Assembly: GCA_022768685.1 (NCBI GenBank)
Contig: JALEPQ010000086.1
Span: 1-32,856, forward strand
DNA: 32,856 nt
Reading direction: 5' to 3'
From: Spirochaetia bacterium
GTDB lineage: Bacteria; Spirochaetota; Spirochaetia; Treponematales; Treponemataceae
Program-made: the position numbers and the translations under genes
The notes under the pieces: generated by a model
Seen by the model: only the letters and a program-made list of their open reading frames with translations
Told to the model about the DNA's origin: nothing
Database searches by the model: none
Shown: positions 6,928 to 18,213 of the stretch, in pieces
How positions within the stretch are numbered: the first letter of the stretch is position 1
Layout of the letters: each line of letters begins with the position of its first letter

Positions 6928-8337
6928 ATGCAGAAATTCAGTCAGATTCAAAGTCAGAAACAGATAATGCGAATGTCTCAAAGGCAAATTCAGGCGGTAA
7001 GTATGCTTGCAATGTCTGTAACAGATTTACGAGATGAAATTTATAAGGCTGTAAGTGATAATCCTGCATTGGAAATTGTAAGGGATCCATTAAAAACTTC
7101 TGCAGAATATTACGAAAAAAAATCATCTTCAAGTGAAGCAATGCAATTTGCACTTGATTCTGCTCATTCAGAAAAAGAAACTTTGCAGCATCATCTTATG
7201 GATCAGCTTAATCTTCAGAAAGTAACAAAAGATGAATATGATTTATGCCAGAGGTTGATTTATAATCTGGATAAAAATGGATTTTACGGTTCAAAACTTT
7301 CTCCAGAAACCTTAATTGATAAAAATAATCCACGTCAGAATAAAATAATGCTTCAAAAATGTCTGGAACGGATACAGAAGATGGATCCAGTTGGAATCTG
7401 CTGTAAAAATTATGAAGAAAGTCTTTTTATTCAGGCAAAATTAAATGGTGATGCGTCAGATCTTACTCTGTTTATTCTGGATGGGAATTTAAGTATTTTT
7501 GATCCGCCTGATCCTGCAAAAATAGAAAAGAAACTTAATGACTATAAAGAAAACTGGCATAAAAAAAGTTTTGCTTCAGAAATTTTGCTTGATAAAGTTT
7601 ACATCTGCCAGGAAGAAATAGAAGAAACTCTGGATTATATACGTCATTTGAATCCTTTTCCCGCTGCTAATTTTGACACTGACACATCCATGGTTGATTT
7701 TCAAAAGCCAGACGTTGTAGTTACGGTTGAAAAAGTTAAGGGAAAACTTTTTGATGATGATTTTTCTACAGGAAGAGTAACAGGTGGCGAAGATTATTAT
7801 TTTCAGGTAAAATATGCCTCTGGAATTTTACCGGAAGTAAGAATTGCCCCTGATATGAAAGATGACAGGGATAATGTAGAAAAAGCAAAAGCATTTTTAA
7901 GCAATCTGGAATTCTGCAAGTCCACAATAGTATTACAGACTTGTGCCATTATTAATTTTCAAAAAGATTTTTTTCAAAACGGAGAAGGAAATGTAAAGCC
8001 TCTCACCAGAAAACAGATTGCTGAGTATTTAGGTTTATCAGAATCAACTATTTCCAGAAGTGCGTCTAAAAAAAGCAGTAAGTACCTTCAGACTGAATGG
8101 GGATTATTTCCTTTCAGTAAGTTTTTTGATTCAGGTGTAAAGAGTTCTGATGGGGAAGAAAAAATTTCTTCACAGAAAATCACAGAATTAATTGAAAAGT
8201 TAATAAAAAACAGTAAGGGACCCATTTCAGATATGGAACTTACAACTAAACTTAATAAAATGGGCATAAAAATAGCCCGCCGAACAGTCACAAAGTACCG
8301 CCAGCGGGCTGGTATTAATAATTCTTATTTAAGATAA
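6928..8337 (+). CDS. rpoN: RNA polymerase sigma-54 factor
   Basis: It directs RNA polymerase to -24/-12 promoters and needs an AAA+ enhancer-binding protein to open DNA. The N-terminal region I is Gln-rich (QSQKQIMRMSQRQIQAVSML), region II is acidic, the core-binding domain follows, then a helix-turn-helix (TRKQIAEYLGLSESTISR, about residue 355), and finally the RpoN box ARRTVTKYRQ at about 450-459, which differs from the canonical ARRTVAKYRE at two positions. The length of 469 residues is typical. An in-frame ATG at 6799 lies inside the divergent DUF1015 gene and would add 43 non-homologous residues; the ATG at 6928 starts exactly at region I and is preferred. There is no Shine-Dalgarno. A likely target promoter lies at 16685-16701, upstream of hsp20. 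Confidence 0.95.
   Translation: MQKFSQIQSQKQIMRMSQRQIQAVSMLAMSVTDLRDEIYKAVSDNPALEIVRDPLKTSAEYYEKKSSSSEAMQFALDSAHSEKETLQHHLMDQLNLQKVTKDEYDLCQRLIYNLDKNGFYGSKLSPETLIDKNNPRQNKIMLQKCLERIQKMDPVGICCKNYEESLFIQAKLNGDASDLTLFILDGNLSIFDPPDPAKIEKKLNDYKENWHKKSFASEILLDKVYICQEEIEETLDYIRHLNPFPAANFDTDTSMVDFQKPDVVVTVEKVKGKLFDDDFSTGRVTGGEDYYFQVKYASGILPEVRIAPDMKDDRDNVEKAKAFLSNLEFCKSTIVLQTCAIINFQKDFFQNGEGNVKPLTRKQIAEYLGLSESTISRSASKKSSKYLQTEWGLFPFSKFFDSGVKSSDGEEKISSQKITELIEKLIKNSKGPISDMELTTKLNKMGIKIARRTVTKYRQRAGINNSYLR
8267..8310 (-). terminator. Rho-independent terminator of hpf, inside rpoN
   Basis: On the minus strand AGCCCGC (8310-8304) pairs with GCGGGCT (8280-8274) around a 23-nt loop, followed by ATTTTTA. 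It lies within the last codons of the convergent rpoN, over the RpoN-box coding sequence. Confidence 0.65.
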
Positions 8338-8340
8338 AAA

Positions 8341-8631
8341 TTACTTCTTTTCCTGAACCTTATCTTTCTCTTTCTTAACTTTATTGTCAAGAACATCCAT
8401 CATTTTGTTTACTGCTGCAGTAAAGTCTTCATCTTTTCCAGAAACGTGAGCCTGAACACCCCATTTAAAGTTAGCAGTAGCTTCAATATCATATTCCTGT
8501 TCGTGTTTAACGATTATTTTAAGATCAACAATAAGATCTTCTGCGTATGCAATACGTTTGAGCTTGCTTTCAATAACGCCTGTCTGTTTTTCACTTAATG
8601 TAAAACCTTGTGCATTACATGCTGTATTCAT
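8341..8631 (-). CDS. hpf: Ribosome hibernation promoting factor, short form (HPF/RaiA family)
   Basis: It binds the decoding region of the 30S subunit in stationary phase or starvation and silences ribosomes. The 96-residue protein shows the family beta-alpha-beta-beta-beta-alpha pattern: FTLSEKQTGVIESKLKRI, VDLKIIVKHEQEYDIEATANFKW, VQAHVSGKDEDFTAAVNKMMDVLDNKV. The C-terminus is a Lys-rich tail, without the extra dimerisation domain of long HPF. The ATG at 8631 is chosen because a strong GGAGGAG lies just upstream; the in-frame TTG at 8646 would bury that site inside the gene. It converges on rpoN with a 3-nt gap between stops. It has its own promoter (8698-8726) and a terminator embedded in rpoN. 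Confidence 0.9.
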   Translation of the reverse strand: MNTACNAQGFTLSEKQTGVIESKLKRIAYAEDLIVDLKIIVKHEQEYDIEATANFKWGVQAHVSGKDEDFTAAVNKMMDVLDNKVKKEKDKVQEKK

Positions 8632-8697
8632 AGTTGTCTCCTCCAAAGTGACTGCACTTTGTTTTGTAAAATATTTATGCTTAATCAGCTATGATTT

Positions 8698-16156: not shown

Positions 16157-16564
16157 TTAACAAGCTTCAATTAAAATCTTTTTTGGAGCTTCCTTAGCTT
16201 TTTTCTGCATATATACAGTTAAAACTCCATTTTTGAAGTTTGCACTGATTGAATCTGTATCTACATCTTTTGGAAGAGTAAAACTTCTTTTGAAATTGAA
16301 ATTTTTTCTTTCTTTTAATACGTATTTAGTGTTCTTGTTTTCTTTTTCTGTCTTTTTATCTTCTTTAACAGAAGCAATTGTAAGATTATTATGATCAAGC
16401 TCTATACTTACATCATTTTCATTTCTTCCAGGTAATTCCATTTCCAATGAATAAGAATCATTGTTTTCAATTACATCAACACAAGGGGAACCTGAAGTTC
16501 CTGAAATTGCTGCATCCATTACATTTCCTAAAAGTGAATCTAAAAAGTTTAATTCGTTCATCAT
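16157..16564 (-). CDS. Small heat shock protein, Hsp20/alpha-crystallin family
   Basis: An ATP-independent chaperone that holds unfolding proteins in oligomers. The alpha-crystallin domain runs from about residue 33 (VDVIENNDSYSLEMELPGRN) through LDHNNLTIASVKED and FKRSFTLPKDVD to the hallmark FKNGVLTVYMQKK near 115; the C-terminal ILIEA resembles the IxI oligomerisation tail. The length of 135 residues is normal. The ATG at 16564 (or the next codon) follows AAAGGAG and is preferred to a TTG at 16633, which would add 23 residues read from a GC-rich leader. A -24/-12 sigma-54 promoter lies at 16685-16701 and would give a leader of about 110 nt. Expression therefore probably depends on rpoN and an enhancer-binding activator. 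Confidence 0.92.
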   Translation of the reverse strand: MMNELNFLDSLLGNVMDAAISGTSGSPCVDVIENNDSYSLEMELPGRNENDVSIELDHNNLTIASVKEDKKTEKENKNTKYVLKERKNFNFKRSFTLPKDVDTDSISANFKNGVLTVYMQKKAKEAPKKILIEAC

Positions 16565-16590
16565 AATTTTTATCTCCTTTAAAAACTCCA

Positions 16591-16620
16591 CGTTAGCGGC
16601 GAGCCGGGATGGCGCCTCCT
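16591..16620 (-). promoter_or_regulatory. GC-rich hairpin in the hsp20 leader
   Basis: About 22 of 30 bases are G or C, in strong contrast with the AT-rich surroundings. On the transcript strand GGCGCC-ATCCC-GGC-TC-GCC (16616-16598) can fold as 6 bp with a 2-nt bulge. A perfect AAGGAGG lies at its 5' side, about 45 nt ahead of the real ribosome site. Confidence 0.45.
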
Positions 16621-16684
16621 TAAGCAGGTGCAATCCTGTGTGTATTTATTTTTTTTATAAGCAAAACGCTTACACTATACTTAT

Positions 16685-16701
16685 AGCAATTTTCGTGCCA
16701 A
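16685..16701 (-). promoter_or_regulatory. Sigma-54 (-24/-12) promoter of hsp20
   Basis: The minus strand reads TTGGCACGAAAATTGCT. It has GG, ten bases, then GC, and agrees with TGGCACG-N4-TTGCW at every defined position. Transcription should begin about 12 nt beyond the GC, near 16674. rpoN is encoded at 6928-8337. Confidence 0.85.
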
Positions 16702-16832: not shown

Positions 16833-16851
16833 TTTTTTGGGTCAAAATAAC

Positions 16852-18213
16852 TCATTTTGAAAAGACATTTTTGACTAATTGTTTAATATTTTCCACCTTT
16901 ACAGATGATTCTTCTTTTTCAGGACAATAAATAGTTGTAAAGCCTAAATTTTTCCCTGCTTTAATTCTTTGTTTTGCTTTATTAACGGATCTGATTTCTC
17001 CTGCAAGACTTAATTCACCAAAAGCTGCTGTGTTGGAACTGACAGGTAAATCTGTTCTGGCAGAATATAGTGCAACTGCAATTGCTGCATCAATGGAACT
17101 TTCACTTAATTTAATTCCACCTGCAACATTTACGTAAATATCCTGATCGTTAAAAGAAAGACCGCATCTTTTTTCTATAACGGCTGCAATTCGTGCAACA
17201 CGTCCGTTATCAATTTTTTCACTGTATATTCGTGAAACAGATGCTTTTGAAGGAACTGTAAGTGCTTGTATTTCAACTAAAAAAACTCTTGTGCCTTCAA
17301 AAACTGGAGTACAGATTACACCTGCGGGTTGATTTTCACTTCGTTTTGTAAGGAAGAATGAGTTTGGATCATCTAAAGGAATTAATCCTTCTTCTGTCAT
17401 AGAAAAAATACCAATTTCATCAATTGAACCGAATCTATTTTTCTGGGCATGTAAAAATCTTATATCATCATTATTTCGTTCAAAACTTATTACTGTATCT
17501 ACCATGTGTTCAAGAGATTTAGGACCTGCAATTGTACCTTCTTTTGTAACGTGTGCTGTCATTATTAAAATAGAATCTCTTTCTTTTACCCATCCTATAA
17601 ATTCATTTGCACAATATTTTAGCTGATTTACAGTACCTGGAATCATGCCTGCTTCAGCAGAATAAATGGTCTGAATAGAGTCTATTATGACTAAAACAGG
17701 ATTAAGAGAGTCTAATGCATCAAGCGCATCTTCCAGGCGGGAAGTACAAAGGATGCTTATATTGTTGCAGTTCAAGTTTAATCTGTCGGCTCTTTCTTTT
17801 ATCTGTTCGCAGGACTCTTCTCCACTTACATAAAGAACTTTTCCCTTATCATTAATTGTTTTAGCAGTTTGTGCAGCAGTTTGAATCAGTAAGGTTGATT
17901 TTCCAATTCCTGGTTCTCCACCTAATAAAATTGCAGAGCGCTTTGTAGCACCGCCTCCAAGAACCCGGTCAAATTCTTCAATTCCTGTTGATAATCTAAC
18001 ATTTTTCTGTGCTTTTACAGTTGAAAGAGAGACAGGTTTAACTTTCTCTGACTGAATGGAACCACGACCTGCAGGAGATATTTTATTTGAATCAATTATA
18101 ATTTCTTCCAGAGAATTCCATTCCCCGCATTCAGGACAACGTCCAAGCCATCTTGGTTGTGAATATCCACATGAAGAACATTTATACATGATTGAACCAT
18201 TTTTTTTTGCCAT
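16852..18213 (-). CDS. radA: DNA repair protein RadA (Sms)
   Basis: A RecA-like ATPase that promotes branch migration in recombinational repair. Domains in order: zinc finger CSSCGYSQPRWLGRCPECG (about residues 11-29), the ATPase core with Walker A GGEPGIGKSTL (about 90) and a VLVIIDSIQTI Walker B, the RadA-specific HAQKNRFGSIDEIGIF motif (about 255), and a Lon-like C-terminal domain (VNVAGGIKLSESSIDAAIAV). The length of 453 residues is typical. The in-frame ATG at 18237 would add eight residues; AGGAG sits just before the ATG at 18213, which is preferred. It is a single-gene unit upstream of hsp20 on the same strand, separated by a probable terminator. Confidence 0.95.
   Translation of the reverse strand: MAKKNGSIMYKCSSCGYSQPRWLGRCPECGEWNSLEEIIIDSNKISPAGRGSIQSEKVKPVSLSTVKAQKNVRLSTGIEEFDRVLGGGATKRSAILLGGEPGIGKSTLLIQTAAQTAKTINDKGKVLYVSGEESCEQIKERADRLNLNCNNISILCTSRLEDALDALDSLNPVLVIIDSIQTIYSAEAGMIPGTVNQLKYCANEFIGWVKERDSILIMTAHVTKEGTIAGPKSLEHMVDTVISFERNNDDIRFLHAQKNRFGSIDEIGIFSMTEEGLIPLDDPNSFFLTKRSENQPAGVICTPVFEGTRVFLVEIQALTVPSKASVSRIYSEKIDNGRVARIAAVIEKRCGLSFNDQDIYVNVAGGIKLSESSIDAAIAVALYSARTDLPVSSNTAAFGELSLAGEIRSVNKAKQRIKAGKNLGFTTIYCPEKEESSVKVENIKQLVKNVFSK

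Follow-up and report, generated by a model that had tools for sequence, protein, structure and literature searches.

The small heat shock gene of this window (the whole stretch of 32,856 nt that was analysed, contig JALEPQ010000086.1 of a Spirochaetia bacterium of the family Treponemataceae) raises the question of which system switches it on. Small heat shock genes are usually under sigma-32, HrcA or RNA-thermometer control; for this one, the original prediction named a sigma-54 promoter. The gene, hsp20, is on the minus strand at 16157..16564 and encodes a protein of 135 amino acids with the Pfam HSP20 domain (PF00011, E=1e-22); its coding sequence starts at the ATG at 16564, rather than at the TTG of the longest open reading frame, and the Shine-Dalgarno sequence AAGGAG is read directly at 16574..16579 of the same strand. 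As predicted, the gene for sigma-54 is inside the window: rpoN occupies 6928..8337 on the plus strand and looks functional, with all three Pfam sigma-54 domains, namely the activator-interacting (PF00309), core-binding (PF04963) and DNA-binding (PF04552) domains. It is followed on the opposite strand by an S30AE gene (ribosome hibernation/sigma-54 modulation protein) at 8341-8646; in Treponema denticola, the ribosomal subunit interface protein TDE1296 is a member of the published core stress set (PMC2965109).

Regarding the promoter, the minus strand from 16701 to 16685 reads TTGGCACGAAAATTGCT, with GG at -25/-24 and GC at -13/-12, and the match that had been claimed was confirmed by direct reading: all the sigma-54 consensus bases are present at the exact GG-N10-GC spacing. 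The element lies 121 nt upstream of the hsp20 start codon and is the only match to TGGCACGN4TTGCW in the window at zero or one mismatch; the remaining matches carry two or three mismatches each and are as numerous as chance would have it (31 vs 30.8 in shuffles). Sigma-54 promoter geometry, counting 12 nt past the C at -12, places the predicted transcription start at 16674 on the minus strand, the same position given by the original prediction, and the sequence AGTG(T/A)A around it is conserved among relatives; the leader counted from this start is 110 nt long.

One proposed check was whether related genomes also keep the -24/-12 element ahead of hsp20, and the outcome was strongly positive. 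The hsp20 loci were picked at the protein level, by similarity, and the scan covered 220-250 bp ahead of each start codon. In the genus, the element was present at 10/12 or better in 67/67 genes and at 11/12 or better in 66/67, 40 of them perfect, with 0.05 expected at the latter threshold from shuffled sequence; elsewhere in the family (19 genera) it was found at 11/12 or better before 42/44 hsp20 genes, 25 of them perfect (0.1 expected), and elsewhere in the order (families f2-f5) before 15/16 at the same threshold. The GG and GC columns and their spacing are nearly invariant among relatives, GG and GC being held at exactly 10 nt within TGGCAC-N5-TTGCW. On comparative grounds, a working sigma-54 promoter at the hsp20 gene of the window is close to certain, and the same predicted element fronts hsp20 throughout the family and, beyond it, in others of the order. 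A separate observation concerns family f3, in which the hsp20 leaders (L322, L325, L326, L328 and others) carry a near-identical GAGCGCCGAAAAGGGC just past the predicted start.

The bases of the element can also be read as a sigma-70-like promoter, TTGGCA-N16-TATAGT, which matches at 10/12 and coincides exactly with the -24/-12 bases, and an ordinary sigma-70 promoter overlapping a -24/-12 look-alike might thus drive hsp20. The relatives make this most improbable: a -10 hexamer (at least 5/6, spacing 15-19) occurs in 5/67 of them, vs about 8 expected from shuffled downstream sequence, and is not conserved, the -35 always departs from TTGACA at position 4, and the TGC at -14 to -12 is nearly invariant, though dispensable for sigma-70. 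Control through the leader or through HrcA/CIRCE, with the promoter being incidental, has in its favour the fact that the leader holds a hairpin at its 5' end and a GC-rich stretch; the hairpin, TGTAAGC-GTTTT-GCTTATA at 16656..16674 of the minus strand, leaves the Shine-Dalgarno sequence free, however. Rather than being sequestered, the Shine-Dalgarno sequence is more accessible than in shuffled leaders (0.60 vs 0.47, and 0.96 unpaired in the hsp20 gene of the window), the leader folds no better than shuffles, the Rfam search gave no match at hsp20 and no thermometer, and the window holds no CIRCE inverted repeat with 3 or fewer mismatches, which leaves this reading highly unlikely.

As for the hairpin, counted if its start falls no more than some 6 nt from the predicted 5' end, it recurs with differing stem sequences in 32/62 non-redundant leaders of the genus (8.0 expected) and in 23/36 leaders from other genera (4.9 expected). 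Such a recurrence is consistent with the predicted start and with a 5' stem-loop that probably stabilises the hsp20 mRNA. The GC-rich stretch (16586-16640, 64% GC amid AT-rich DNA) has no Rfam match and no repeat among the loci of the same genome that were compared; a loosely similar stretch follows the second hsp20 gene of this genome (L001, about 2130-2190).

The genome to which the window belongs (2.28 Mb) has four perfect TTGGCACN5TTGCW sites and three exact TGGCACGN4TTGCW matches, and the reversed control of TTGGCACN5TTGCT gave zero matches in it. Each of the four lies on the correct strand, 55-137 nt ahead of a start codon: they precede the hsp20 gene of the window, a second hsp20 (contig C120, L001), the gene of a sigma-70-family factor of 281 aa that has regions 1.2, 2, 3 and 4 (C197, L003) and that of a 306-aa protein of no confident family (C104, L005). 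The two hsp20 sites and the sigma-factor site share the downstream stretch ATTGCTATAWRTAWAGTGTA. The 281-aa factor scores 254.9 bits against RpoS (TIGR02394), below the curated cut-off of 378.7, and is therefore named a group-2 sigma-70-family factor.

Perfect sites were found in 99/118 genomes of the same genus, with far fewer matches to the reversed control pattern. The 94 distinct sites, a slightly selected set that includes most of the sites listed and omits a few resembling coding-sequence repeats, divide into 31 before hsp20, 44 before a sigma-70-family gene, 11 before the 306-aa family and 8 elsewhere, rpoN being the downstream gene of one of these 8, so that 86/94 precede a gene of the first three kinds. 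The 44 sigma-70-family sites comprise 33 of the L003 type, picked by promoter and hence not an unbiased rate, and 11 of a second paralogue, about 30% identical (L065:634-1461, L070, L084, L118 and others), with a perfect -24/-12 element; several sigma factors seem to be under sigma-54 in the genus. In one relative (G038, L098), rpoN itself has a perfect -24/-12 element 30 bp ahead of it, which suggests autoregulation there. The family of the 306-aa protein (306-332 aa; L005:1557-2477, L077, L115 and L126, for example) has its own perfect sigma-54 promoter at no fewer than 11 loci. Single homologues gave weak Pfam hits to sigma-70 regions 2 and 4 (E 0.0015 and 0.012), profile comparison with the RpoS-like set gave no support for a sigma factor, and a single-sequence AlphaFold2 model of the 306-aa protein was uninformative (pLDDT 40).

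Three of the promoters of this genome share a dyad near -150, and from this dyad and the sigma-factor upstream regions of the same genus the palindrome GTGTCA-N3-TGACAC was taken, and counted at 10/12 or better. It occurs 100-300 bp upstream of hsp20 in 37/67 protein-picked genes of the genus (0.32 expected) and in 35/43 from other genera (0.28 expected), which had no part in defining the motif. The candidate upstream activating sequence of the window, GAGTTATTTTGACCC at 16839..16853 of the minus strand, has its centre some 172 bp ahead of the predicted start and overlaps the radA stop codon; at 9/12 it is weak alone, as is the copy at the second hsp20 gene, also 9/12, and the case for an enhancer comes from the enrichment before hsp20 across the family, which is about 100-fold. 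When the upstream regions of hsp20 and the sigma factor were searched de novo for exact 5+5 palindromes, GTGTC did not come out on top, owing to the variability of its half-sites, and AT-rich palindromes were dominant, as in shuffles; the motif thus rests on the mismatch scan and on the out-of-sample test in the other genera. Genome-wide, 14 genomes contain 9 exact palindromes; 5 lie by an hsp20 or sigma-factor gene, and the remaining 4 lack a fitting promoter.

The distribution of the palindrome among the sigma-54 targets is selective. It precedes 31/33 of the L003-type orthologues, again at 100-300 bp, and none of the paralogous sigma genes (0/11), of the 306-aa family (0/11) or of the other sigma-54 sites (0/8). 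Accordingly, hsp20 and this sigma factor, the orthologue of T. denticola TDE0937, form one sub-regulon and likely share enhancer and activator, and the remaining sigma-54 targets presumably form another. Elsewhere in the order, hsp20 retains the promoter but has the palindrome in 2/15 cases, which indicates a different activator or a different site for it.

Three proteins encoded in the genome have clear sigma-54-activator domains, and one of them, L037 on contig C153, is the only complete enhancer-binding protein found: it has a receiver, the AAA+ domain (PF00158) with the loop GAYTGA, and a Fis-type HTH (HTH_8), and the gene directly upstream of it encodes a PAS histidine kinase. Its best hit is AtoC (NF008469) with 481.6 bits, below the curated cut-off of 714, and it is called AtoC-like for this reason. 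The protein of contig C39 lacks an HTH, and its loop is degraded (GACTGV); that of C142 has a Fis-type HTH and no loop. The sigma-54-activator AAA+ protein lacking a DNA-binding domain (L038:1276-2391), whose loop is GACTGV in this genome, has an intact GAFTGA in some relatives (L311 and L312, for example); similar-sized hits are listed for other near-complete genomes, and none for the 1.1-Mb relative. The AtoC-like protein itself is found in all 13 near-complete genomes examined, with 59-81% identity.

By elimination, the AtoC-like regulator is the likeliest activator, and probably the right one. The other reading, in which the sigma-54 promoter and the palindrome are real and a different enhancer-binding protein serves them, is possible but rather doubtful. 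The genome is 92% complete, and another activator could be encoded in the unassembled 8% or be divergent, like the protein of C142; some relatives have additional complete enhancer-binding proteins, and the AtoC-like protein is retained in G137, the 1.1-Mb relative that has no hsp20, and must have other roles. Against this, the protein of C142 lacks the GAFTGA loop needed for sigma-54 contact, that of C39 lacks the HTH, and among the strong PF00158 hits of the near-complete relatives G041 and G076, the AtoC-like protein alone has both loop and HTH.

The reading that very probably accounts for the locus as a whole is as follows. RNA polymerase with sigma-54 would transcribe hsp20 from the 16701-16685 element, starting near 16674. 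An enhancer-binding protein of the NtrC type, required for the open complex, would bind GTGTCA-N3-TGACAC about 100-300 bp upstream and reach the closed complex across the AT-rich spacer; this protein, most likely L037, would be phosphorylated by the histidine kinase of the adjacent upstream gene. This activator would also switch on the second hsp20 and the group-2 sigma factor, which in turn would relay the signal to further stress genes. The original prediction of a stress regulon under an enhancer-binding protein is thus supported by the palindrome common to hsp20 and the co-promoted sigma factor, by the single complete enhancer-binding protein, and by the co-induction of the T. denticola counterparts in a published array study (PMC2965109).

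In that study, TDE0937 was up 2.8-, 21.8- and 14.0-fold on heat, oxygen and osmotic downshift, respectively, and the Hsp20 gene TDE1029 was up 9.5-, 8.5- and 6.7-fold; both are within a core stress set of 39 genes, and TDE0937 was proposed by the authors as a potential global stress regulator (PMC2965109). The paper mentions neither RpoN nor HrcA, and its available part proposes no promoter, enhancer or activator. A genome of genus g15 that contains both published TDE0937 primers exactly encodes an L003 orthologue with 57% identity; its TDE0937 element, TTAGCATGGTTTTTGCT, is weaker (10/12, the first G of the GG being lost), and its hsp20 has the element TTGGCATATAAATTGCT, with GTGTCAAAATAACTC upstream. 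Within the limited literature collection searched, no paper linking Treponema hsp20 to sigma-54 was found. The core stress response of T. denticola was described in 2010 without a regulator, and the elements reported here would predict that it depends on RpoN and one response regulator.

On a broader scale, sigma-54 appears to serve hsp20 across the family and, judged by the promoter, across the order. Sigma-54 demands an ATP-driven activator, and chaperone synthesis would for this reason be tied to a sensed signal. It is somewhat better than an even guess that the general stress response of the Treponemataceae is a two-component sigma-54 switch, in which one AtoC-like enhancer-binding protein, acting through a single palindrome, turns on hsp20 and a stress sigma factor together and replaces the usual sigma-32/HrcA control of hsp20.

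Regarding known systems, a sigma-54 regulon with an enhancer-binding protein is of a familiar kind; what appears to be new is the set of targets, the site and how deeply the system is conserved. A likeness in gene content is seen with the T. denticola core stress response, whose orthologous genes TDE0937 and TDE1029 are co-induced by heat, oxygen and osmotic downshift; what the present analysis supplies is a candidate mechanism, consisting of sigma-54, palindrome and enhancer-binding protein (PMC2965109). A small heat shock gene is also linked to sigma-54 in a survey of sigma-54 regulons, where IbpA/COG0071 is among the heat shock genes of a sigma-54-enriched cluster in Planctomycetota and Bacteroidota; in the part of the survey available, the text on Spirochaetia does not include hsp20 and Treponema is not mentioned (PMC12316311). 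The arrangement resembles two-component systems of the NtrC/AtoC/ZraR type in that a PAS histidine kinase adjoins a receiver-AAA+-Fis HTH regulator and a 15-bp dyad lies 100-300 bp upstream; unlike AtoC, ZraR and NtrC, L037 scores under the curated equivalog cut-offs, and the GTGTCA-N3-TGACAC site and the targets, hsp20 and a sigma factor, are different.

Finally, in the Rrp2-RpoN-RpoS system of Borrelia burgdorferi, which serves stress and host adaptation, a spirochete sigma-54 and a response-regulator enhancer-binding protein likewise activate the gene of an alternative sigma-70-family factor (PMC3037356), and here too a sigma-54 promoter precedes a group-2 sigma factor, L003 and its orthologues (33 promoter-picked loci). 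Rrp2 was reported to have no specific binding at the rpoS promoter, where BosR is required (PMC3037356); here, by contrast, a conserved palindrome is common to hsp20 and the sigma factor, and the pattern of an enhancer-binding protein with no specific DNA site is not seen. Moreover, the sigma factor is below the curated RpoS cut-off and has its type of promoter in common with the small heat shock genes. If the reading is true, this would be a second RpoN-to-sigma cascade in spirochetes, wired differently from that of Borrelia, and would provide a comparison case for the latter, where the missing specific binding of the enhancer-binding protein is a puzzle.
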